Shown in pieces: positions 7,201-64,000 of a stretch of DNA of 64,000 bases (position 1 is the first letter of the stretch; each line of letters begins with the position of its first letter). The DNA is from Apostichopus japonicus (Eukaryota; Echinodermata; Holothuroidea; Aspidochirotida; Stichopodidae), in NCBI RefSeq assembly GCF_037975245.1, contig NC_092562.1, positions 31,436,554 to 31,500,553 on the forward strand, written 5' to 3'. The notes under the pieces were generated by a model that was not told the DNA's origin, made no database searches, and saw only the letters and a program-made list of their open reading frames with translations. The translations under genes were made by a program, and so were the position numbers.

Positions 7201-10200
7201 AACAAACTGGCGACGAACTAAGGAACAACCTATAATTTAACCCAGAATATTTCTGTATCGTAAACATGGCAGTTTATGGGAATATCGGGCCGTTTGACAA
7301 CACAGTCGAAAGCTTCGAAGATTACGCAGATCGCTGCGATGCCTTTATAGTGGCAAACGATATTGCCGAGGCGAGACAGGCTAATTTTTTTCTCGCTATG
7401 GTGGGCGCTGACACTTTCAAGCTCTTGAAAACGGTATGTAGCCCAGACAAGCCGTGTACACAGACGTATGCGCATCTGAAAACCATCCTGAAAGGACATT
7501 TTTCACCAAAACCGATCGTGATCGCTGAACGTTTTAAATTTTGGGCTGCTTCACAGTCTGAAACCGAGTCAGTTGCAGACTTTATTGTTCGCTTGAAGAA
7601 CTTAGCGACCCATTGCGATTTCAACGCATTTCTACTGGAGGCACTGCGAGACAGACTGGTCTCGGGGCTGCACACAAGATTTGTGAAAACTCAAACGCAG
7701 CTACTCTCAACCGCTGATCTGACGTTTGAAAAAGCTAAAACCAAGTGTCTTGCAGACGAAATGGCTGGCATAGCAACAAGGGAACATATCGATGCAGGAA
7801 GTTCTGTGAGTACAAACAGATTGAATTGGCGGAGCCCTCAAGGTCAAGGACGAAGGAGTCAGGGGACTAGAAACAACAACAAGCACAATAGGTCTAATCA
7901 GCAGCCCTGGCAAGCTAACAGTGCACAATCATGCTATCGCTGCGGGGGAAGCAACCACAAGCCCGATGATTGCAGGTTTCGCGAGGTAAACTGTCATTCG
8001 TGCGGGAAGAAGGGTCATATTCAAAGAGCTTGCCAATCTGGGGCTAAGGGACCTCAAAGCCAGAACAGTTCGCAGAATCAGACGAGGACAGGGGGTCACC
8101 TCAACCACTCCGGCTCAACTACAGTAGCTATAGGCCTATGGAGGATGGTGAGCCTAACGTTAGTTCTAGTAATAAGGACACTAATGAACAGTATGTAGAT
8201 AGTGTTAATACTGATGAAAGTGATTTACATTATGGTTTATATCATACATTATCAGGTGTAAAGACCAATAAGCCGTATTTGATTACATTAGTGGTAGGGG
8301 ACACTAATGTTCCAATAACCATGGAAATTGACACCGGTGCGGCTCTTTCCACCATTTCGGAGCATGTGTACAAGTCCAGTTTGGCCCATTACCCCATAAA
8401 GGATACCAATATAACCCTACGTGGCTATTCAGGTGAAAAGGTGCCTGTGATAGGGAGTATTGTAGTCACGGCAAAGTATGGAGGTTCTAGTTGTAGGATG
8501 GATTTATTGGTTGTCAAGGGAATCCGTCCATCCCTTTTCGGCAGAGACCACTTGAGTAAAATCAAACTAGACTGGGAGAATATTTTTGTGGTATCTGAGC
8601 CAAAACCAGCAAAGGTTGGAATCCAAAATTTGGGGAATCCTGTGTCACCAACCTTGGAAAATTTGTTGAGTCATAATCAGAAAATATTCTCATCAAGGGA
8701 AATGGGTATTAAGGGATTCTCTGCTAGGTTGAGGGTGAAATCAAAAAGTAGACCCAAATACCAAAAGAGTAGGCCAGTGCCTTACTCATTATTGTCAAAG
8801 GTGGAAAATGAATATGAGAAACTTATCAAGAATGATATAGTTACCCAAGTCAACTATAGTGAATGGGCCTCACCAGTTGTGCATGTACAGAAGGGAAACG
8901 GTGAAACAAGAGTATGTGGAGACTACAAAGCTTTGAATGATTGTATTGAAGATGAGGGATACAAATTACCAAATACTAATGATTTATTTGCAAAACTGGC
9001 ACAGGAAGGTACACACCCTAAGGTATTTTCAGTGCTTGATTTATCTGGTGCTTTCAGTCAGCTGTTTCTTGATGACGAATCAGCTAGGCTCCTAGTAATG
9101 AATACACATAAGGGGTTACTATCACCAAAACGTTTGTGTTATGGGGTGAAAACTGCACCAGCTATTTTCCAGGAAACGATGGACAAAATATTATCTGGAT
9201 TAGACAATGTATTTTGTTACATAGATATCTTGATTGCAAAGTTCTGAGAATGAGAATAGTCAGTCACCTTAAGGCCCTCGATGCAGTGTTTGCGAGGTTA
9301 AACATGCACAATGTTCGGCTGAATGGCACAAAATGTCAATTCGTGAAATCAAAGATCAGGTATCTTGGTCATGAGCTCACCAGTGAAGGTGTGAGCCCTT
9401 TGCAGGACAAAATCGAGGCCATACGAAAGGCACCTCGACCAACCAATGTATCTGAATTGCAGTCCTTTCTGGGCATGGTGAACTATTATGGCAAATTTGT
9501 AAGGAATCTCTCTTCTCAGATGCAACCATTGTATGCCCTACTGCAACACAACATTAATTGGGTCTGGAGTGATGACTGTGAGCAAGCTTTTGTTAATGCA
9601 AAGAATGCTTTAGCTAGTAATCAGGTACTCACCCATTTTGATCCAAATAAACCTCTAGTGTTGAGTGTGGATGCTAGTCCATGTGGACTTGGAGCTGTTT
9701 TGGGCCTTCGATATCCAGATGGTTCAGATCGCCCCATAGCATATGCCTCTAGGACATTGAGTCAGACCGAGAAGAATTATGCCCAAATCGAAAAAGAGGC
9801 TCTTGCCATTATTTTTGGGATCAAGAAATTCCACTTGTATTTGTATGGCACTAATTTCACACTTATCACAAATCACCAACTGTTGACTAAGATCTTCGGA
9901 CCAAAACATGGTATCCCGGCTTTGGCGGCAGCTCGTATGCAGAGATGGGCAGTGTTATTGTCCGCATATCAGTACAATATTGAGTACCGCTCTTCTGCAA
10001 AGAATGCAAACGCAGATTTGCTCAGCAGACTCCCAGTTGGGGAAGCCTCCAGTGGTGACCCAGAGGAGTATTTTGTTTTTGAGACAGTCCTAATGGAAAC
10101 CCCTATTACTGTGACTGAAATTTCAAAACATACAGACAAGGGCCCAGTTTTAGCCAAAGTTTTACAGTTTACTCTATCTGGCTGGCCAAATCATTGTGTG

Positions 10201-13200
10201 GACCCTGCCATACAACCATACTTCACACGCAGAGATGAGCTATCCCTGGAGGATGGATGCCTTATTTGGGGGCGTAGAGTAATTATTCCATCCAAATTGC
10301 ATGAGCTTATCCTGAGTGAACTTCATGAATGTCATCCGGGCATGAGTCGGATGAAGGCACTTGCTAAGTGTTATGTATGGTGGCCAGGTTTAGACAAGGA
10401 TATTGAGGATAAAGTTAGGCTGTGCACGCAATGTATACAAGTGCAGAAGGCGCCTAACCCTGAACCATTGCTGTTATGGCCATGGGCCACACAGCCATGG
10501 CAGCGGGTTCACATAGACTATGCAGAGGTCAAAGGTCAGAATTTCTTGCTAGTGGTGGATAGCCATTCAAAGTGGTTGGAGGTATAACCAATGAATACCA
10601 CAACAAGTACTGCCACGATTAATGTGTTGAGAACACTTTTTGCACGTTATGGGTTACCCATTCAGCTAGTAAGTGATAATGGTCCTCAGTTTAGATCTGA
10701 GGAATTTCAGAACTTTCTGAAGTCCAATGGTGTGGACCATACTCTCACTCCTCCATACCATCCAGCTACGAATGGGCTTGCAGAACGCAATGTTCAAACT
10801 TTCAAGAATGCTTTTGCTAAGTCAAGTGGGGAGACATTGGGTCACAAGGTAGCTAATGTTTTATTTACTCTTAGAAATACCCCGAACACAACTACCGGGA
10901 AAACTCCATCAGAGTTATTTCTTAAGAGATCCCCAAGGACTAGGCTCTCTTTAGTGAAACCTAGCCTGCAGAGGAAGGTGGAAAAGAGACAGGATGCTGC
11001 AAAACAGCAAAGGGACCGCAGTTCATCAGTGCGGCAGTTCGACCTTTATCAACCAGTGAGGGTGCGAAATGTGAGAGGGGGGAAGGATCGATGGATTCCT
11101 GGTACCATAGTGAAAGTCAAGGGGCCTCGTACATATATTGTTAGGATCCCTGGCAATAATCGTAGGTTTCTACACTCAGATCATCTTATCCTTGTTGATA
11201 CTGGTGCAAATGCTATGGCTGGAAAACCAAACATCAACTAACCCTATGGATGCTGATGTTGTGCCAGTTCCAGTTAATGTACCTCAGACAACTAGGGAAT
11301 TAGGGCAGAGCTCTAACTTGGATCAGCCAGGACCTTCCACCACATCCCCAGTAGTATCTGGTAGTCCTGTCCACACAGGTCAAACCCCAGTTGTGGTAGC
11401 AGAGTCACCTGCACCATCAGCTACAGTAACCAGGTCAGGCAGAGTTGTCAGACCACCCAAGAGGTTAGAGATTTAACTATACCCTCAAGTTGTTAGTTTT
11501 GGTTGCTTAATTTGATAAAAGATTGATTGATTTAATAAAAGTTGAGTTGTTTAATGAAGAAAAATATTTGATTGTTTCATCATCTGGTAGGAAGGAGTGT
11601 TATATATCAGTATCACGCCATCTATTTTGGTAAAGTTGTTGTGACCTGCATGTGACCTGATGAAAATAAACAGTTCAATATGGCCACATGTGCTGTAAAC
11701 ACTTAGCATTTGTCTTCTTGTTATATCGCTAGGAATCAGGATAATCCTCCATTAATCCAGGGTATAACAAGTGAAATTATCAAATGAGCATCAATCTAAG
11801 AGGTATGGACACCCAGTGTTACCACAAACTATTGATTCAATAAATATGCAAGACCTGAGAGAGGAGATGTTACCATCAAATCCAATCACAACTACAACTG
11901 TGAGTACAGCAGCCATCAGCTCAAAAACTAGCAGATAGTTAACTACTGCTGCTATGAAGTAATGGTTACATTCAATGTTACATTGCCACTGCCTCACCCC
12001 ACCTAAACCCCTGAATTTTGTGTACTGCCTGAATATGCCTGAAAGTAGGGTTTGTACTAGTTTGTACATGTAACATCAACTTTACTTCTCACATGTAATT
12101 TGACCAAAACATCACTTCAAATTTCATCATTGGCTTAGCTTTAGGTTTCTTTACGATGTATTAAAATAAATACCACAAGACGATTCCCAAACAGTACTGT
12201 TCCTTGTCATACATATGCCGTAGAGGATTGATAGAGATCTTACCGTTCCGATATTGGACAAGGAGAAGGTTCCACCACTCAGATCATCACTGCCGAGTTT
12301 ACCAGCCGTTCCTAAGGCTATTAGACGGTTTATTTCAGACGCTACTTCATACACTGTCAGGGCCTGTACATTTTTCACATTTGGCACGAGCAGTCCCGCT
12401 TGTGTGTCAAGTGCAAATCCTATATTGTGGCTGGCCTGAAGAAATGATCAGAATGGTTAAATGTTTGATTGATTATTGTGTCACTCTTGTGGCATTAACA
12501 AAGTTTGGGAGGGGTGGGTGGGTGGGGACTGTAATCTGTGTGGGAGGGGGTGCGTGGGTGGGGGTGTAATCTCCAATGATCGCAAGGTAAATGGAAGGTA
12601 TCACCATCTATGAATAAAACTTCAAATCACTTTAAAACTAATGACACACATTTTAGATAGACAAACATAGTAAATAGTGATGAAGGTTTCTCTCATCGGG
12701 AGTCCCAGCCACAAATTTGAGTTTTAATTACCTTGTACGTCAAATTTTCACAGGCGTCATCCACACTGGCATTCAAAATAGGATAGTGTAGTAAAGCCAT
12801 TGAAGCAGCCTGCAAAGATAAAACAACAACGATAATTCATTTAACAGCCATTGAAGATAAATACAAATCAATGGCAGGCTCTGAGACAAGACTGTAATGT
12901 TCAGTATTAACAGTGTCTATGCAATAACCTCTCATTGAAGGAATGAGGAGAAGTTTACAGAACTGTTACTGGTCTGTTTAATAGAGATACTTGTAGCCAT
13001 CAACTGAAAAGAAAAACTGAACTGTTAGTCCATTCAGGAGATATCACAGTTTAAATGTAGCTTAATACGCAAACTGACGGAATTCTTTAGCAAGCCTACT
13101 TCTTCTTACCTTAATAAATACTGGCATGAATGAGAACCTATCCACCCCTCTCTGCAATGCAGCTTCCTTTAACAGAGGCTTGACAGAAACAAGGCTGGTG

Positions 13201-20167: not shown

Positions 20168-32383
<12,216 letters not shown>

Positions 32384-34309: not shown

Positions 34310-37300
34310 CTACCTGAAAGGTGCAATATTTATTTGATATAAGTTCAAAGTAAGACTAATCACAAATGAAACGATGAGCCAATATCGAGGCTGGATGAGA
34401 TGTCCACTGTTGGAGGTTTCTTTCTTGTCAGCTGCAAGTAAAGATAGATAAATCAGTTTTCATTCTGTTGTTTTCTCATGTACTTTCGACCAAAGAAAAA
34501 GTATAGTTAATAAAATGTCGAAGAATTTCCAGTTGCATTTGGATTCGTTCTAATCATTGCATTTGTGTCATTTAATAAGTTTTAAACATATCGAAAAGGT
34601 TTCATAATAGTTTCCCCCGAATTGTTTAAAATCACACACAATGGGAAGTTTTTAGCAGCTGTAATACATATTGCTCTGAAATGTTGTATCCGTTTGTCCT
34701 ATTTTGAGATGGTTCAATTCTTAGTCGTACTTACCACACCCTTCAAGCGGAAACAGTTCACATCTTAAGAGTCCGTTGTCACAGTGACAGAGGTTACAGT
34801 TCCTATATACCCACGCCCCATTGGCCAGACGATCACATAGGGAGATGTTACGCACGTCAGTTTCACAGTACCTTCCAGTGAAATAATTCGGACACATACA
34901 GAATGCTCCAAGGTAACCTGTCCCGCCATTTTGACAATGAGAGTCATCGTAAATGACTGCAAGTTTAAGAGAAGAAAAGGCAATCAATATGACAAATGTT
35001 TGCTGTATTTATCTGTACCCTTGTACTATATATAGGTAAACAAACTCCATTAAATGAATACTGTATGGAGGCATATACCCAACTTCAAAAGAGAAGGCAG
35101 GGATGGGCCCTTGCAAAATGAATTTCTCGGGGTTCAAAATTATATTATTTGAAATTGAGGGCAGGATCACATGGGTGTTGGAAGAGGGTACAGTCTGAAT
35201 GGAGGGGGGCGGGGGGGGGGGGGTTACAAAGTTCTATCGGCAGTGGGAAATACAACTTTAACTTCGGGGGCGAAAGAATAAGTTATCTCAAACTAATCCG
35301 ACCAAATTTACCTAAAAATCACGTAACACGAATTCCATTAAACAAACAGGCACTTTTTAATGCATTTTTTTTCAACAACGGCTCCTTTTCCTCACATATT
35401 ATAGAGAGTACTTTCTGTTTCAAAAATGTGTTTATTGTTTTAATTTTCATTATCAACGGGGCACATATTATTTATGGATATAGAAGCACTTTTGACGCTT
35501 AAAAAAAATTCCAGCCCCTTTCCAAGCGGGGAGGTAGCATTGAACGTAGTGCTACATAAACTACAGATTAAAAGCATCTGGGAGTTGTTGGGAAGTGGAT
35601 ATAGAGGACCTTTGAAGGCATTGAAGACTCGCCCCAAACAGCCTGCCGCCATCTTTAAATAGTTAACTTTCCGTTGCTTGCAAGTAAAGTTTTTTCTCTT
35701 GTCGCTACAAAATGCAGACAGTAATGAAACGTGATACCTTGTTATCTTTAGCTGGACCTGATATGTCCATCGCTGTATCGTTTGTACACTGTGCTGTGGG
35801 TATTGACCGCAGCTGTATGTACTGACTGTACACTAGTGTCTAATTACCGACGTAGCAAGCTGTGTGTGTATTTTCTGGGATCGATGGTGGTGCTAACACT
35901 TCCGCTACACCTCATACGAAACTAGGTCAGATTACAGGCATTAGACGTTTCTTTTTGCGCGAGTCTTCACACCCTTTAGAGTCCTACTGTATATGTAATG
36001 ACCGTATAGCCAGGCATCCGCGCTGATCATGGATAATATCGGTTCACGTTCAAGAGCGCTAGTCATGGTGTCGCTTCTCAGCTAGCTTTATAATTACTTT
36101 TTCTTCAAATCATAAGGTTTTCGTTTAGGCTATTTGAATTATGTATTAATATCACAATTTGATATCATAGCTTGAGATGCGTGTTAGGGTGTTGGCATCG
36201 TCCACGAAGGACATAAAGTAATATAGTGTTCCTCTGATCAGTAAGAACATGGAGGTAAAAACAGAGTTAGAATGAGGACAGGAACACGAGAGAAAGAGAC
36301 ACGTTGTACACTAGGAAGTGAAACCGGCTGTGCTATTGTGCCGATTCACTGTTGATAAAGATGTTCTGGGGTGAACTTCGGAGCCAACGATGTGTGAATG
36401 GTTACGTAACGGCGTATTGATGACTTTAGACCTATATTGAAAGACATCTATTGTGTTAACTTTCTAGTCAATAAGAGATTGGTATCCTATGGTGAGTAAA
36501 GGGGTGCCAAAGTGGTTAACGACCTATAGTTTACAATGAATGGGTAAAGACTGTCAATCGACTTTAATGAAAGTCAAACTTTTAATCAGAAAATAGTTGT
36601 TTATGGAATGTAACTCCTCCGTGTGTGTATTCGGGATGATTGAAGGCCGTCAGTTTTGATACACTTCAAACCCATCCCTCCTAAAATTACCAACTTAAGA
36701 TTTTGAAAGTGTTTCGCTTTAAGTGGTGTTGCAGAAAGAAATATTTTTCGGACACCGACGGTTGTATGGATATAAAAAAAAATCGTGACGTAACGAAAAT
36801 CTGTCACATCATATAGTGATTAACATTTTAGGCAAGAACATACCTACACAAATGTCACTTCAGAAATCAAACTTACATCCGAAACAATGAATAAAGCAAT
36901 GGGTTCAAATCATGCCAAAAGAAATCAAGAGCAAAAAAAAAAAAAAAAAAAAAACATTAAATGTGTTTTACACAACATTTTCGCATTATATTAATTGGAT
37001 AATTACTCCTTCGTTCGGGTAGGCAATTTTTGCTAATCAACTAAATTTGAAATTAGGGTTATACCATTATGTGTGAATATGGGCCGTGTACGAGTGACAT
37101 AAAGATACAGCTCAACTTATATGAATGATGTGTAGGCTAAGTGGCACTGTGTATTGTCTTTTAAGGAGGGTGGGGTGGGTGCATATAGAAGAAATGGGTG
37201 TATTGAGAGGACCAGTGTTGCCTTCACAAACTTGTCGTCAAAGAAACTGTTGGCAAAGAAACTGACGCCAAATAAGGTACAAAATGACAGGGGTAGATCC

Positions 37301-40300
37301 AGGATTTTCTTAAAGGGGGAGGGATGCGGTGGAGGCGATGTTACTCTGAGAGACGCACTTATGACGGTTACTATCTAAGCGGAGCGCCACCATCAGTTGG
37401 CGCCGGTAGCGAAGCAAACAATTTTTTGCCAAAAATGCCTCCCAGATTGCCGGAAATGACACTTCCCATGCCCTGGTGCATTCTTCATTTTGAGATCTCT
37501 TGCACAACTAATACAAAACGAAAAAGAATTCACTTTATATTTGATATTTTACACATGCAGGTAATTGAAGGTAACCATATTTTGATAAGTACTTCACGTT
37601 ACATGGATAGAAGTCCATGACATGTGTTCTTGGCTAGGCCAAAATTCATGTTAATTGCGACTACTTGTGTGTACTTGTAGGTGAATAATAATTGCTACGT
37701 CAATAGCCAGATGCAAAAGCAAGCTAGGGCATATGATGGTAGCCGTAGCTATACATACTGAGGGAAAGCATTGTGGGGAATTGTGGTGTATATTAATTGT
37801 TAGGTTTGTGTTATTATTGTTTGTTAACATACCACAAAGGGACCTACTGGGGTACCAAATGAGCTGAATGATTGGGCCGTGAAGGGGACTGGGGGCCACG
37901 TCCCCTCGTTAGTTTGTTACAAAGGCCCTGACATGGGGTTGATGAAGTAAGCAATTGACGATACCGGGAGAGCATACGCCCAGGTAGGAAATTCTATTTG
38001 TACACATTGCATTACTATTATTGTCCAAATATTTACGATTAATTTCCAAGGGGCGGGCCGGCCACCCTCCCCCCCCCCTCCCTCCCCAGGATCCATCCCT
38101 GATTAAGGTGATTTTATATGAGAGAACACTTACCAGGAATCTGCTCTTGGTGATTCACGTGATGTATGGTTGGTTTTTTAGGGCTTTGTATATCTAGTCC
38201 ATATTTCTGATTATTATCCGGTTTTGCGTCTCGCATGTCTTGTCTTTGATCGTAGAATGCTCTATCCTGCATCAGCGTGTTACCGACGACTGCGGTAAGC
38301 AACCCCAGCAATAAAATCAAATGAGTAATTAGAATTACAAATCTGTTGGAAAAAAAAAACCGGAAAAGAAACATGATGTGAATGCTCCTGCTTAAAGGTA
38401 TGCTGTGTTGGCCCCAAATATGCTAGATATTCAAATATGGTCACCATTGGTCAAAATTCTGAAACTGTTTTTATTACAACCTTTGATGAAATTTCCTCAC
38501 TGGGACTTTCAATCATCAAGTGTGTTCCTTAAAAATGCATGAGAACAATTTGGAGAGTAATGACCTCCATGAATGTACTTTTTGAAAACTTCTAGCAATT
38601 ATATATAGTGTGCTATAATTTGGTGCCTATACTGACTACCTTTAAATGTGTATATTTCACGAGATACTTGATCGTAAATTGATAGTATTACTCAAGGCTA
38701 ATTTACAGAGACCTGTAAATTAATTGGATACAACCTACCTCGTATTCTCAACTCATATACAAGCTCGTCTGCAGCATATTATTTGCATTACAAACAACAT
38801 AACGGTCACTAGCGTATGGTTCCTTGCTTTAGTGTTGTAATTTCATCACCCAATATCATAACATTTATGCACACGATAACCAGCGATTGCGCTCAAATGG
38901 TCCCTGTTGCTGTGTCATCGCGGACCCAAGCAAGTGTCACAGACGCACAAACAGACACACACGCTAACCTGACAGCATAGGTTCATTTGGTTCCAGCAAG
39001 GAACCAAAAAGCATCAAGGCCAGTGGATCTGAATATACGTATAGGCCTTACTTGTTAAAAAAAGGACAGTATCATTTGATTCATTTCATTCATTTATAAA
39101 CTTGTATCAATGTATCAGCGATATATTTGATACATGAGGGAGAGAGGAAGAGAGTGGTGTGAAGAAATAATCAAAATACCCAAATATTCATGGTATACGG
39201 CATTACGCATGCAGGGGTCTCAGTATAACTCCACCAGCCCCCCCCCTCCACCCACCCACACCCCCCCCCCCTCCCCTGCTCCTCCCGGTTTTTGCTTTCC
39301 TCTTCAATTTATCGTATTTATCGTACATGAGGATAACGTTGATTCCAGTAGCCACTTGTTCATCAGCAGTTTCCTGTATTAACATTGATAACAACAGGAA
39401 ACCACCGAACCTACTACTATACCACTGATCTAAATATCCTGTTTTAGTCTCCATACGGTACCGCGTAAACGTCTCCTTTTCAATTAAAAAACTGCCGTTG
39501 ACATTCCGTGACGTTCTAGTGTTTTCTGATACCAGTTTGGAACAGAGTCATGTAAGGTTCTGGTTTGGACCAAAGGATAATGAACATCACACAGGTAATC
39601 CCTGAGTCTCCATTGTTACCATGAAATCCATTAAAACATTAGTGAGTCAGTTTTGGGTCGCAAGTCATTGCATGCATGTTATACGTTAATCCATCGATGA
39701 ATCACAAAGTTTACACATTTAACTATTTTTACCGCGTTCTTGGTTTGTGTAACAAAGCATACAAACAGTATCATTTGATTCTTTCATCGCCTCAACATTT
39801 TTTTTGTTACATTACATTTGGCTTTCTTGTACACTTTATACAATCCCTTACAATTTGTGAATCCATCCGGTAATTAAGTTCCTCTACGGTAGCCTAAATA
39901 AACTATGGCCTAGCAGGAGATTCTTTCCAAGCCTTCGATGCCAGATAATGGATGAGAATTCCCCCCCCCCCCCCCCCCGTCATCATTTGAGGCTTGGAAG
40001 TATACGAACCATAGTCGACTTTGACTGTTTGAACTGTTGAAAAATGTTTATTATAATCGAAGAAGGAATTTAGACAAACATTCCAACCACTTGCTTGATA
40101 ATGGAATTTATAACATGATAATAAACTCGATAATAAAGTCCCAGGTTATAGCCAGTTGGCATAATAAATGATTATTTCGTTGTTGTCGGTAAATGTTATG
40201 GGGTAAAAGTATGCAACCTAAAATCCCGGCACCACTTAACACTTACTTCAACCCATCACATATAATGTTGTTAACACATAACTTGTATAGCCAACGGTGC

Positions 40301-49882: not shown

Positions 49883-50473
49883 TGGTTAGAAATCTTGTAG
49901 GAAACAGGCCAAATGGACACCCAGTGAACCCATATCGATGTGGATCATATATAGGATTGTACATACACTCATACACAAGAGATGTACAGACATTATGATA
50001 ATAATCATGAGTGACAACATGCTACATGGTCACAGGTCACAGAAACGATCACGAAGAGTCATCTACCTCATGCAGCATGTGTTGGATGAAGTTTTAGCCA
50101 CCGCCAAATATGATTTGGATAAATAATCTCACGCATTATCTTCTATTTGTTGTCAACATACACCATCAACGGCATGCATATATTCAAATAACGATAAATT
50201 ATGATTTCCAGATAATCTTAAAAAGGTCGGTTTAATTTGTCTCTTAATTCATTGCAAATTTTTACTGTCCAGAAACTGTAGCCATCCTACTATATGAATA
50301 TTTGAAATTGCTATGGAATTGCTATGTTATAGCAGTAATACACACAATTAACGTTGCCTACATAGTTAATTATCACCTTTAAACAAATCAGATCCAGTAA
50401 GCTTGTGACATTATATAATACTGTTTTTGTGTTTTACAGATTTGGCCACTTAAATCCTCAATAATACAACAAG

Positions 50474-52750
50474 ATGGAGACATTAGCAGCATTGGATTAC
50501 TTGATCATCGTTGGTATGCTGATCGTCTCTGCTTTAATTGGAGTCTTCTTTGCCATCAGACAACAGTCTGTTAGTGATTATTTTCTCGGTAATCGCCATA
50601 TGTCGGTGTTTCCAGTTGCTATATCGCTGACAGCTACGTTCATATCCGCTATCACATACCTTGGAACGCCAGCAGAGGTGTACATCCATGGACCGAAGTA
50701 CGGATTGATGGCCACTCTTCGGACATTTGTTCCCATTGTGATAGTCTACTGTTTCATACCGGTGTTCTACCGTCTGAAGATCACCACAGTGTATGAGTAC
50801 TTGGAGATGAGATTTAATAACACCGTTCGCTTCCTCGTCCTCGCTTCCGAGTTTGTCGGCGGATTCATCTACATGGGTATCGTTGTATACACACCTGCAC
50901 TGGCACTGAGTACAGTTACTGGACTAAATCTAACTTTCTCTATTCTGGCTATCGGTGTCGTTTGTACCTTTTACACTTCAATAGGAGGAATCAAGGCTGT
51001 TATATGGACAGACGTGTTTCAGGTAAGAGAGTGGCACTCTACCCCACGACCCCTTCCAAGTCCTCTCGTAGGCAACAAAGTACGTGGAAATGCCATTCTT
51101 TGGCCAGATCTGTGCATAATATAGATAACACTAATTTTCCTTGTGACGGGTCTCATTTTTAAATTGTCTCTGCAGAAGAGACAACCCTTATCCAGTTTAA
51201 ACACTATTCTACACTTATACTTTCTAACATCTTGCATCTATAATCTACAGACTTTGTTCATGTCTATTTTATATGAGATATATGCCCTAGATGAATTCCG
51301 CTGGGAACAGGAAAGGGAAATGAAGACTATATATGGCATTACGTTTATTCAGTTCTAGGCTAGGATAACAAGTTGCAATGGAGGACATCTAAAGGGTCTG
51401 GAGATTCCACGTATCCCAAATGATGAGGGATGGGGGAGGAGTTGGTGGGTTACCATCTACACATTCCCAAGGACATGGGTACATTAATTGTAACAATCAA
51501 TCGACTTCAAAAATGATTCAGTTTATGTGGTTATTGCTGTTTTATTGCAGGCCTTCGCGATGGTAATTGGGGCCATAATTATGATCATTGCCGGTACGGT
51601 CAGCATCGGAGGACCAGCCGAAGGTTGGCGACGAGCAGCCGAAGGAGGTCGAGATCACTTGGTTGATTTTAACATAGACCCAACTATTCGCCTGACATTC
51701 TGGTCCATTTACATAGGTGGTACTTCTTTCCTTATTATGATAGGAGGAACCAAACAGAGTTTCGTCCAACGATATCTGTCTTGTAAAAGTGAAAGCGATG
51801 CTCGGATGGCAGCCTGGGTAGGAATGATTGGTACAGCTGTAATGGAATTACTAGCAGTAGCTACGGGCATGACAATCTTTGCTTATTACCACGTATGTGA
51901 TCCTCTTACTTCCGGTGAGATTTCACGTGCAGATCAGATTGTTCCCTATTTCATGATGGATATTTTCCAATCTGTGCCAGGTTTACCTGGACTTTTAATA
52001 TCCGGGGCCTTCTGTGCGTCACTTTCCTCTATGTCGTCTGTGTTGAATTCCATCGCTTCAATAGCTGGACAAGACATCGTGAAAACCATCTGGCCGGATA
52101 TGACGGACGCAACGTATTCATTGGTTGTCAAGGTGATATCTGCAGTCTTTGGCCTGGTTACCATTGCACTGGCCTTTCTTGCGTCTGTTCTTGGCGATGT
52201 CCTGCAGACTGCTCTATCGATTGCTGGAATAACAGGGGGTCCAGCGTTTGGGGTTTATATCCTTGGTTTGTTCGTTCCGAGGTGTAACTCAAAGGGGGCG
52301 GCGGTTGGCATGATAGGAGGTACATTAGTCGGTCTATTTTTGTATCTTGGGTCCCGTTTTTACCCGCCTATTAGTCACAGACCTCCTCTGTCTGTTGAGG
52401 GATGTGACGCGTTGTTGAATGAGACCTCTTCATCAATGTATAATGATGTTGCCACCGAACTGTTTACTGTTAGTGATACAAACACCGTTGAATCGGTATT
52501 GTCAGAGAGACCACCTGGTACTGCAATGTTTGCAATCAGCTATCTTTACCTTACAACAGTCAATGCATTAGTTTGTGTAATCCTAGGCGTTGTAGTCAGT
52601 TACGTAACCTCTTGGAATAAGCCGCAGAAAGTAGATCCCAAACTTCTAGCACCGATCATTGCTCGATCATTCATCAGTTTGGTACAAGATCATGAAGAGA
52701 AAGATAAACCGCCAAGTCCGACAGATTATTTACCGTTAAGTAAAGTTTGA
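50474..52750 (+). CDS. SLC5-family sodium/solute symporter, paralog A
   Basis: Two coding exons, 50474-51022 and 51551-52750 (GT/AG, phase 0, after TDVFQ), give 582 aa. A splice acceptor at 50439 implies a 5' UTR intron. The sequence fits a 13-helix sodium symporter fold: SDYFLGNRHMSVFPVAISLTAT (helix 1 region), TVYEYLEMRF, GGIKAVIWTDVFQ, SGAFCASLSSMSSVLNS (helix 8 Na2-site serines, about residues 338-354) and a C-terminal tail after the last helix near 525. It is closest in feel to the SMCT/SMVT/NIS branch (SLC5A8/12/6/5), so the substrate could be monocarboxylates, vitamins or anions; the sequence alone does not decide. Length fits (580-640 aa). Tandem with paralog B. Confidence 0.93.
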
Positions 52751-57218: not shown

Positions 57219-57700
57219 AGGCCCTCTTACTTTTACTTATTATAATTATTGTTATGTAGTAGGCCTATGTCCACTAATTTAGTACTTCAGACATTTATTA
57301 CAGAGAAATTGACGACGCTTTCAGCTAATATTATTGCTGGATGTTGACAATATCTAAATGTGCCCTCAAGCTAGAGGATATTGTTAGCAAAGATAGTTAG
57401 ACCGGACAATGGGATTATCTACAGGTAGGGTTGTAAGGGGATAATCCAAACTAGGGCCTTCATGTGTGATAATAACCAACGTTATTTCACTGATTAGCTG
57501 ATATGGTTCCTCTAAACATCTACGATGGAGATATCTCATACTCTTATCACGACTGGACGAAATCTCACACGGTTGTGCCAGTCTTTAGACGGGCTTGGTA
57601 TCCGCAAGTTGCGGACCTCTCCCAGTCACTGCAAGTCACTGATACCTGTTTCTTTACCTTACGTTCAGGACTTTATCTAGTCTTACGAGATTTGAATGAA

Positions 57701-59911
57701 ATGGAGGCTCTAACAGCGTGGGATTACTTGGTAATAATCGTTATGCTGGCGATATCAGGCCTGATCGGAATCATCTTTGCAATTCGGTCTGTAGGACGCC
57801 AACAATCATCAAGTAATTACTTTCTCGGTGATCGCCACATGTCGGTGTTTCCTGTTGCGATGTCACTTACAGCGACGTATATCTCAGCTATAACCTACCT
57901 TGGAACACCTTCCGAAGTTTACCTACATGGACCGAAGTACGGCCTGATGGCGATGACTCGTATATTCGTCCCATTTTTGATCGTGTATTGCTTCGTGCCA
58001 GTGTTCTACAATCTTGATATCACTACGGTGTATGAATATCTCGGTATGCGCTTCAACAACACTGTTCGGTTTCTCGTCGTTGCTATGGAGTTTTTCGCAG
58101 GGTTCACCTACATGGGTATAGTGGTTTATGCACCTGCATTAGCACTCAGTACAGTGACTGGACTAAATCTAACCTTCTCCATTCTCGCTACCGGCATCAT
58201 CTGTACTTTCTACACAACAATAGGAGGAATAAAGGCTGTCATTTGGACAGATGTCTTCCAGGTAAGATTCCATCTAACTATTCCTTGTTTAGTCCCACAT
58301 CAAGAAGATGGAGGGTGTTTGGGACTGTTCGAACATCATCCGGTAGGGCGTCAACAAGGGAAGGGTGTGGTTGGCTAAGGATGCTGCAACCAAATAAGTA
58401 TGTACTTGGGTAGGGATGAAAATGCTGGAACACGATACATATGTTTTTATGAAACGAAACTGTTATGCGTGGCGAGAGTGACGAGAGAAAGTCAAACTTA
58501 AATAAAGCTAACGAGGAGACTAAAGTAATATTTTTACGACATGTTGGTATTACCTATGCCTTAGTTAAACAGAGCACAGTACAATCAAAACTGTAAGCAG
58601 TTACATCCGTATCGCAGATCTGTTTTAAGTTAATATATTGATTTGTTAATCTTATTAAGTTCGTTCACAAATGATATGGAATTTTCCTCTTCCAACTATT
58701 AGGCTATTTTGATGATCGTCGGTACAATTATGATGATCATCGCAGGTACGATTCAGATCGGAGGTCCTGCAGAAGGATGGCGAAGAGGTGCTGAAGGGGG
58801 ACGAACACAGCTAATAGATTTTAATATCGATCCAACGGTTCGATTGTCATTTTGGTCTCTATGCTTAGGAGGCTCAAGCTACTTGGTTATGATTGGAGCA
58901 ACAAAACAGGGCTACGTCCAAAGATATATGTCTTGTGCGAGTGAACGAGAAGCCCAATATGCGACTTGGTTGGGCATTTTGGGGACAGGTGTTATGCAAA
59001 TCCTGGCCGTGACTGCTGGCATGACCATATTCGCTTACTATTGCAAATGTGATCCACTGACTTCTGGTCACATTAATCGGCCGGATCAAATCGTTCCCTA
59101 TTTTATAATGGATGTTTTCCAGTCTGTTCCTGGGATGTCTGGATTGGTCATATCCGGGGCTTTTTGCGCCTCGCTTTCCTCCATGTCTTCTGTATTGAAC
59201 GCCATTGCTTCTATGACTGGACAGGACATCATAAAGGTGATTTGGCCAGATATTTCAGATGTGAAATATTCGGTCATTATTAAGATAATATCTGCCCTGT
59301 TCGGGGTTTTAACCATTGTGCTGGCCTTTCTTGCTTCTGCTTTGGGAGACATCTTACAAACAGCTGTATCTCTTGGAGGGTTGACTGGAGGCCCTGTACT
59401 TGGGGTATTCATGCTAGCATTTTTCGTCCCGAGGGGTAACTCTAAAGGAGCCACGACAGGATTAATTGGAGGAACTCTCTTTGGCTTGTATTTATATATT
59501 GGGTCCCAAATGTATCCTCCTCATGTCCAACGACCTCCTTTGACTACTGAGGGTTGCGAAGTAGATTTAAAGAATGGAACCTATACAACACTTGGTGATA
59601 ACTTGTTAACCGAAATGTTTACAGTGAGTACTGACAATTCAAGCCTAGAAGAGTCGGTCGTTTCAAACAGACTACCTGGCACTGCAATATTTCAAATCAG
59701 TTTTTTGTACCATATAGTGATCAACTCACTGATCAGCTTCATCATAGGGGTAGCTGTTAGCTATCTGACGTCATGGAAAAATCCCAAATTGGCGAAAGCT
59801 AACTTGTTGGCACCAATCATCGCTCGGATGTACACCAAATTAGAAAATGAGAAACAAGTTGATAGAGGTTGCATGAATTTGGAAGAACACGTCCCTTTAC
59901 AGAACGTATAA
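57701..59911 (+). CDS. SLC5-family sodium/solute symporter, paralog B
   Basis: Coding exons 57701-58261 and 58703-59911 (phase 0 after TDVFQ, same place as paralog A) give 589 aa. Start chosen because MEALTAWDY aligns with METLAALDY of paralog A. An in-frame ATG at 57503 would add 66 unrelated residues, and a possible acceptor (TTACGTTCAG, ending 57668) suggests that stretch is intronic. Motifs as in A: NYFLGDRHMSVFPVAMSLTA, TVYEYLGMRFNNTVRF, GGIKAVIWTDVFQ and SGAFCASLSSMSSVLN. An insert of four residues (SVGR) after FAIR distinguishes it from A. AATAAA at 60016 is a good 3' end candidate. It likely arose by tandem duplication; the substrate is not known. Confidence 0.93.
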
Positions 59912-62455: not shown

Positions 62456-63706
62456 TCAAACATTTTTCGAGATATCTTCCATCTCGGTCGGTACTTCCTG
62501 ATACTGGTTTCCAAGACCTTTCTTCGTTCCTTCCTTCTCCTCTCTCGATTTCAAGAAGTATTTTTGAACCATTGGCGTCAGATGAGCTGAGTCACATGCG
62601 TCCGCCCCTTTACCGCCGGGTAGATAGCTTACAAGAACACCCACAATAAATGTGATTACTGTACTTATTGTACTGTAATGTAAGTTACTTATAGCAAAAA
62701 TAGCTATACGATGAACGTGTAACTCCGCCTCACTCGCGGTTACGTCAGAGAATCCGGTAGTTTCGCTGTAATAATCTGCAGGCGCTAAATCAGTGAATGT
62801 TTGATACGTCATTGGCATTTCTGTAATATGTGAAGTATTAAGGCTCTCGCAGCGTTCCACGGAAACAGGAAGGTTAGACTGTGATCGAGATCCAGTCACT
62901 CTAGCTCCTATCTCCAGGGAGAGCCCGACTATTACAGCTACAATCAGCCCACTTAGGGCGCTTCGGGCGTCAGCCCTAGGAACAAAGACTCCGAGACATA
63001 TGACGCCAAAACCAGGTCCGCCAAATATACCACCGAGGCTGAGAACGATTTGAATGACGCCACCGAGGAATGAGGTCAGCAGAGCAATGCCAATAGAAAT
63101 GAGCCCCAAGAATGCAGAGATGAACTTCATGAGTCTGGTATAACTAGCCTCAGACATATCCGTCCAGTAGTTCTTTATAATTGTCTCCCCTATCACAGCA
63201 GCCAGTGAATTAATCAGAGACGATACCGAGGACAGAGAGGCGCAGAATGCGCCAGCAATGGCAATACCAGGAAGGCCAGGTATACCATGGAACAGATCCA
63301 TCACTAGAAGAGGGACCAGCTGGTCACGCGATGTGATCCTGCCTGTCGTGAGTGGATCGCAGTAGGCGTACCATGCAAACGCCACCATCCCACAGATGAC
63401 AGCAAGCATTTCTACCACACCCATCCCGATAATTCCTATCCAGGCTACCAGCTTTGCTTCCCTCTCTGTTTTGCAGGAGTTGTACCTCTGTATTACGGCT
63501 TGTTTGGAACCATTGAGCATAGTATAAAAGAAAGTACCTCCTATCATGATAGTCCAGAACGTATATCTAACTGTTGGGTCGAAGTTAAAATCCACCAGTT
63601 GGGTCCTTTGTCCTTCTTTGGCGCGCCTCCATCCTTCAGCAGCGCCACCTATTCTAACGGTTCCACCGATGATAATAAGTAGAAATCCAATCAGCATAAT
63701 TAAAGC
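62456..63706 (-). CDS. SLC5-family sodium/solute symporter, paralog C (last coding exon only)
   Basis: One exon of 416 codons plus stop, from acceptor CTCCACAG (ending 63707) to a TGA at 62456. It corresponds exactly to exon 2 of paralogs A and B, beginning with the residues that follow TDVFQ (ALIMLIGFLLIIIGGT). It retains GWRRAKEGQRTQLVDFNFDP, SGAFCASLSS-type helix 8 serines (here AGAFCASLSSVSSLINS) and GVFVPRADARSALSG. It is clearly more diverged than A and B are from each other. The first coding exon was not found to 64000 and presumably lies to the right. It is transcribed towards paralog B. Confidence 0.9.
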   Translation of the reverse strand, partial: ALIMLIGFLLIIIGGTVRIGGAAEGWRRAKEGQRTQLVDFNFDPTVRYTFWTIMIGGTFFYTMLNGSKQAVIQRYNSCKTEREAKLVAWIGIIGMGVVEMLAVICGMVAFAWYAYCDPLTTGRITSRDQLVPLLVMDLFHGIPGLPGIAIAGAFCASLSSVSSLINSLAAVIGETIIKNYWTDMSEASYTRLMKFISAFLGLISIGIALLTSFLGGVIQIVLSLGGIFGGPGFGVICLGVFVPRADARSALSGLIVAVIVGLSLEIGARVTGSRSQSNLPVSVERCESLNTSHITEMPMTYQTFTDLAPADYYSETTGFSDVTASEAELHVHRIAIFAISNLHYSTISTVITFIVGVLVSYLPGGKGADACDSAHLTPMVQKYFLKSREEKEGTKKGLGNQYQEVPTEMEDISKNV

Positions 63707-64000
63707 CTGTGGAGGGGAAAAGGGTCAAACTTGGTTAAGAGATCAAAGGATCGATAATATGATTATTCCAAATGCAATTATTCCACAAATCGTAAACATG
63801 ATAATGGTAAAGAGATCAAATAAACGATCTCATTATGAGAAGTGGACCATGAAAGATAAAGGGAGTAAAGGGAGTTACTGTGGGATAAGAAGCCTTGGTG
63901 AAAAATGCTTAAATTCTGGCACTAGCTATAATTTGTGCGCCAATGTTTTGGAGCTACTTCGGAGACACGAGTAGCCTATGGAGGTAAACTGGTCCAAAGC

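Follow-up and report, generated by a model that had tools for sequence, protein, structure and literature searches.

The window, the whole 64,000-nucleotide stretch of sea cucumber DNA analyzed here, carries on its minus strand an EGF-CFC (Cripto/Cryptic) gene whose three exons are bounded by canonical GT-AG sites, agree in phase, and join into an open frame; in it the family motif CCxNGGTC has become HCQNGGTG. The reading that we favor from the sequence, and hold to be probable though well short of certain, is that this is an intact single-copy gene whose product has lost Cys1 and Cys3 of its EGF domain as a pair and still serves as a Nodal co-receptor. It is a variant of the EGF-CFC family rather than a new kind of system.

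Gene Architecture

The three exons, and the three EGF codons on which the argument turns, are as follows.

38134..38374, minus strand: exon 1, with the ATG, a hydrophobic signal-type segment, and a cysteine-free N-domain; open frame, GT donor, phase 1
34735..34956, minus strand: exon 2, with four of six EGF cysteines and six of six CFC cysteines; delimited by AG/GT boundaries and phase
34310..34431, minus strand: exon 3, with the C-terminal tail, a hydrophobic stretch, and the stop TAG; phase-1 AG acceptor, frame uninterrupted as far as the stop
34937..34939, minus strand: His87 at the Cys1 position, codon CAT; directly precedes Cys88 (Cys2)
34919-34921, minus strand: Thr93, equivalent of human T88, codon ACA; just before Gly94
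34916..34918, minus strand: Gly94 at the Cys3 position, codon GGT

The joined reading frame of 585 bases encodes 194 residues followed by a stop. Exon 2, of 222 bases (34956 down to 34735), lies between an AG acceptor (...CTTGCAG/TCA) and a GT donor (TGTG/GTAAGTAC; minus strand, slash at the boundary) and joins exon 1 (38374-38134) and exon 3 (34431-34310), both in phase 1. The interval 34735..34956, which had been singled out in an earlier sequence-only reading of this DNA, coincides exactly with this splice-bounded middle exon.

The order of signal-type segment, N-domain, EGF domain, CFC domain, and hydrophobic tail fits the EGF-CFC family, with the two ends assigned by hydropathy. The signal-type segment of exon 1 covers residues 12-30, with a mean hydropathy of 2.75 (a hydropathy assignment only), and the exon 3 tail reaches 1.69 at residues 173-191. 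This tail is a putative GPI-signal-like sequence or membrane anchor; the C terminus is hydrophobic and includes a possible small-residue site, SNSG, yet it ends in the polar NIAPFR. An AATAAA, which may be there by chance, lies 11 bases past the stop of exon 3. The only N-glycosylation sequon of the protein, NIS at residues 117-119 (34841-34849, minus strand), is in the linker between the EGF and CFC domains, whereas human CRIPTO has the N79 sequon just before the EGF domain, where the sea cucumber protein has none.

Relationship to the EGF-CFC Family

Human CRIPTO (188 residues, with N79, T88, and W123 in agreement with the numbering of PMC11751877) matches exon 2 at 1e-13 in a tblastn search, with identity in 34 of 70 columns, and part of CRYPTIC is identical to exon 2 at 36 of 65 positions. 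The Pfam CFC model scores 25.2 bits on exon 2 alone and 27.8 bits in the genome search, against a cut-off of 23.2, and 22.5 bits, slightly under that cut-off, on the spliced full-length protein; the nearest Pfam EGF model, EGF_2, gives 19.0 bits on exon 2, under its cut-off of 22.1. A PDB search at E ≤ 1 gave 17 sequences, of which only the CFC domain of mouse Cripto (2j5h, E 0.0057) belongs to the family; the others are Notch, clotting-factor, and further EGF proteins.

Like human CRIPTO (TDGF1) and CRYPTIC (CFC1), the protein has a signal-type start, a cysteine-poor N-domain, an EGF domain followed by a CFC domain, and a hydrophobic tail. With both it also shares the NGGT turn, the stretch FCxCP..F.GRxCE (here FCxCP..FTGRYCE), the six CFC cysteines, and the ALK4-contact tryptophan (Trp129, corresponding to human W123); the Nodal-contact threonine, human T88, is present as Thr93. 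It differs from the two human proteins in having His for Cys1, Gly for Cys3, and no POFUT1 consensus. All six CFC cysteines are in place, with the spacing C-x12-C-x2-C-x-C-x6-C-x7-C, the last interval being 7 residues where human CRIPTO has 8 (12-2-1-6-7 versus 12-2-1-6-8). Asn126 stands at what we take to be the site of a further ALK4-contact residue, a histidine, in CRIPTO.

Ambulacrarian Nodal co-receptor genes on record include Cripto of Paracentrotus lividus (PMC11239237) and the hemichordate Pf-cripto (PMC4571091). Our literature searches, run mostly outside subscription journals, found no publication on a sea cucumber EGF-CFC gene and nothing on lost cysteine pairs in EGF domains. Pattern searches for relatives gave 3 matches in viral_contigs and 53 in genome_contigs, none of them confirmed, as expected for an animal gene.

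Loss of Cys1 and Cys3 from the EGF Domain

Exon 2 encodes the stretch ...DDSHCQNGGTGYLGAFCMCPNYFTGRYCE..., in which the EGF domain keeps four cysteines (88, 100, 102, and 111) and the CFC domain keeps six (121, 134, 137, 139, 146, and 154). The N-domain and the tail are free of cysteine, so that the total is ten, an even number. A six-cysteine EGF domain with adjacent Cys1 and Cys2, which is usual in EGF-CFC proteins though not defining, is not found here, four of the six being present. The residue listing of the joined frame bears out the earlier claim that Cys1 and Cys3, and exactly those two, are gone from the EGF domain (His87, CAT; Gly94, GGT) while the other cysteines of the EGF domain, four in number, and the full CFC set of six are retained; the residue numbers first given, 84 and 91, become 87 and 94 in the 194-residue gene model. 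The usual EGF disulfide pairing is 1-3, 2-4, 5-6 (PMC7349879), under which the two losses would correspond, as had been proposed, to a single bond and would leave no free cysteine. The bonds retained would be 88-100 and 102-111.

The change from TGT to GGT takes one base, and CAT is at least two changes away from any cysteine codon. From the code table, neither A-to-I nor C-to-U RNA editing should be able to make a cysteine codon out of CAT or GGT. Domain 1 of Plasmodium vivax MSP1-19 is an EGF-like domain that lacks one cognate cysteine pair and is still used, although that protein is unrelated and the pair missing there is a different one, Cys2-Cys4.

Only a single assembly was examined, and the two codons might reflect an error of sequencing or assembly, or the allele of one animal. 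We consider this very improbable, given that an error would have to account for three or more base differences confined to two codons while the rest of the exon is clean, and that HiFi reads underlie the assembly if its source is the one described in PMC10344927.

Pairing by itself is weak evidence, because when two of the six EGF cysteines are lost at random, 3 of the 15 possible combinations are bonded pairs; for all twelve cysteines the figure is 6 of 66. We simulated neutral decay starting from the present frame and stopping when two of its ten cysteines had been lost (3000 runs each), and found frame and splice sites intact in 17%, 7%, 5%, and 3% of runs at indel/substitution ratios of 0, 0.05, 0.10, and 0.15, respectively. 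Decay is therefore disfavored, yet possible. The sequence-only reading had judged that the change looks selected or compensated rather than like random decay. That view is partly supported: the simulations speak against decay, but they have no bearing on positive selection, for which the bonded pair is itself weak evidence.

A gene recently relaxed or dying, its cysteine changes being the first visible decay and its product folding poorly or having no Nodal role, would account for two missing EGF-domain cysteines. Such a history is compatible with the chance frequency of bonded pairs, with the minority of simulated genes that survive intact, and with Cripto-independent Nodal signaling, which is discussed as a possibility for a hemichordate (PMC4571091). 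We nevertheless regard it as unlikely, since the splice sites, the frame, the six CFC cysteines, NGGT, FCxCP..FTGRYCE, and the tryptophan are all retained, the cysteine number is even, and the CAT of His87 is two or more steps removed from cysteine.

The age of the change is a separate matter. We see about an even chance that it is old, common to many sea cucumbers or other echinoderms, and an ordinary feature of the clade that annotators have left unremarked; this would be compatible with a working co-receptor and overlaps with that reading in probability. A sea urchin Cripto exists, and in Paracentrotus lividus it co-precipitates with Panda (PMC11239237).

Copy Number in the Genome

Vertebrates have families of EGF-CFC genes, and in the sea cucumber the full cysteine set might in principle come from a second such gene or from a mutually exclusive exon that the gene model misses. 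Both altered codons fall inside exon 2, and a six-frame scan combined with tblastn found no second EGF-CFC exon in the 64,000-nucleotide window. Searching the whole assembly (671,581,487 bases in 35 contigs) with exon 2 gave 2 matches from 17 candidates: the query exon and an exon of a Notch-type EGF. When the Pfam CFC model was run over the genome at E values up to 10, a single one of the 24 matches listed scored above the cut-off, and this was exon 2. Taken together, the window scan and the genome searches with the exon and the CFC model uncovered no missed or duplicated exon that supplies the cysteines, and we give the existence of one hardly any credence. On these searches, the EGF-CFC gene is most likely single-copy.

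Three loci were inspected as possible EGF-CFC copies and set aside. The second genome match of exon 2 (L002) encodes a Notch-type EGF in which all six cysteines are present, and two loci read from the 23 sub-threshold CFC matches (L004 and L006) resemble, by eye, VWC-type repeats.

Loss of the O-Fucosylation Consensus

POFUT1 recognizes the consensus C2-x4-[S/T]-C3 and requires a folded EGF domain (PMC11990869). The pattern occurs nowhere in the 194-residue protein, whereas Thr93 is present, which agrees with the original observation that the O-fucosylation consensus is destroyed and its threonine kept. Because the replacement of Cys3 by Gly abolishes the consensus, and POFUT1 needs both consensus and fold, O-fucosylation is unlikely, and the sea cucumber protein is probably without O-fucose. 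The genome gives 13 matches to O-FucT genes, one of which (L026) has what we take to be a POFUT1-like motif.

The need for O-fucose on the Cripto EGF domain in Nodal signaling has been disputed, and two papers cited by PMC11751877 bear titles with opposite conclusions. To go by the titles, Shi in 2007 reportedly held that what is needed is the threonine rather than its fucose, and Schiffer in 2001 is said to have held that fucosylation is required, which counts against a fucose-free working co-receptor. If the sea cucumber gene is functional, a threonine-bearing co-receptor without the POFUT1 consensus would bear directly on this dispute, and would also reveal which of the EGF disulfides is dispensable in a Nodal co-receptor.

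Candidate Nodal and Lefty Genes

The mature domain of human Nodal, pieces of which are given in PMC4613256, detected 13 loci in the genome, six of which were compared with six human references. One locus (L011, G000:C6:18618577-18618879) scores best with human Nodal, with 48 of 100 positions identical. Another (L023, G000:C8:2253416-2253733) scores best with LEFTY2 (36 of 105 identical) and lower with TGFB1 (37 of 112 identical). Candidates for both the Nodal ligand and its antagonist are therefore present. The second locus reads as a Lefty-like TGF-beta exon, RCCR...LPMM...PNM...CSC.

The pre-helix loop that faces Cripto reads CSGPLEAIHNPSNHA in the candidate Nodal and CPNPVGEEFHPTNHA in human Nodal. 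In the human protein two glutamates are crucial for Cripto binding (PMC4613256), and the PNPVG stretch contacts Cripto T88 in AlphaFold3 models (PMC11751877). Both glutamates and PNPVG, with the exception of one proline, are absent from the sea cucumber loop. Because the loop differs in this way, the partner site on the candidate Nodal may be changed or weakened; the difference may also be ordinary divergence.

Proposed Mode of Action

The EGF domain of Cripto binds Nodal and its CFC domain binds ALK4; AlphaFold3 models place T88, which is normally fucosylated, at Nodal and W123 at ALK4, in agreement with cited mutants (PMC11751877). For the sea cucumber protein as a working co-receptor, we envisage an EGF domain that two bonds (88-100 and 102-111) would stabilize and that would bind Nodal through the retained NGGT turn, including Thr93, while the CFC domain, with its six cysteines and the ALK4-contact tryptophan, would bind the type I receptor. 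The Cys1-Cys3 bond would be partly redundant with the Cys2-Cys4 tether and is perhaps the cheapest to lose; we infer that it is the most dispensable of the three because Cys1 and Cys2 are adjacent, which means that bonds 1-3 and 2-4 both fasten the chain at one and the same place. One cysteine may have been lost first, in which case the loss of its partner would have removed a harmful free thiol. Such a co-receptor would rely on the threonine itself, in line with the 2007 title and contrary to the 2001 title.

A more specific proposal, which we put forward tentatively and think on balance doubtful, is that this is a natural Cripto whose two-disulfide, fucose-free EGF domain supports Nodal signaling, the loop CSGPLEAIHNPSNHA of its Nodal having changed in step. 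If true, it would constitute a natural experiment in which the threonine matters, rather than the fucose or the Cys1-Cys3 bond.

Other Features of the Window

Five open frames, at 50465-52747 (plus strand), 57494-59908 (plus strand), and 62459-63724 (minus strand), match the sodium:solute symporter family (Pfam SSF) and probably represent three neighboring genes of one family. A retrotransposon extends across several frames at 7236-11238 (plus strand); in the two pieces of it that were scanned, gag, RNase H, and integrase zinc-binding matches lie over their cut-offs and the reverse transcriptase match lies under its own. A long TA-type simple repeat, read as YIYIYI in open frames, occupies 28289-28942 (minus strand).
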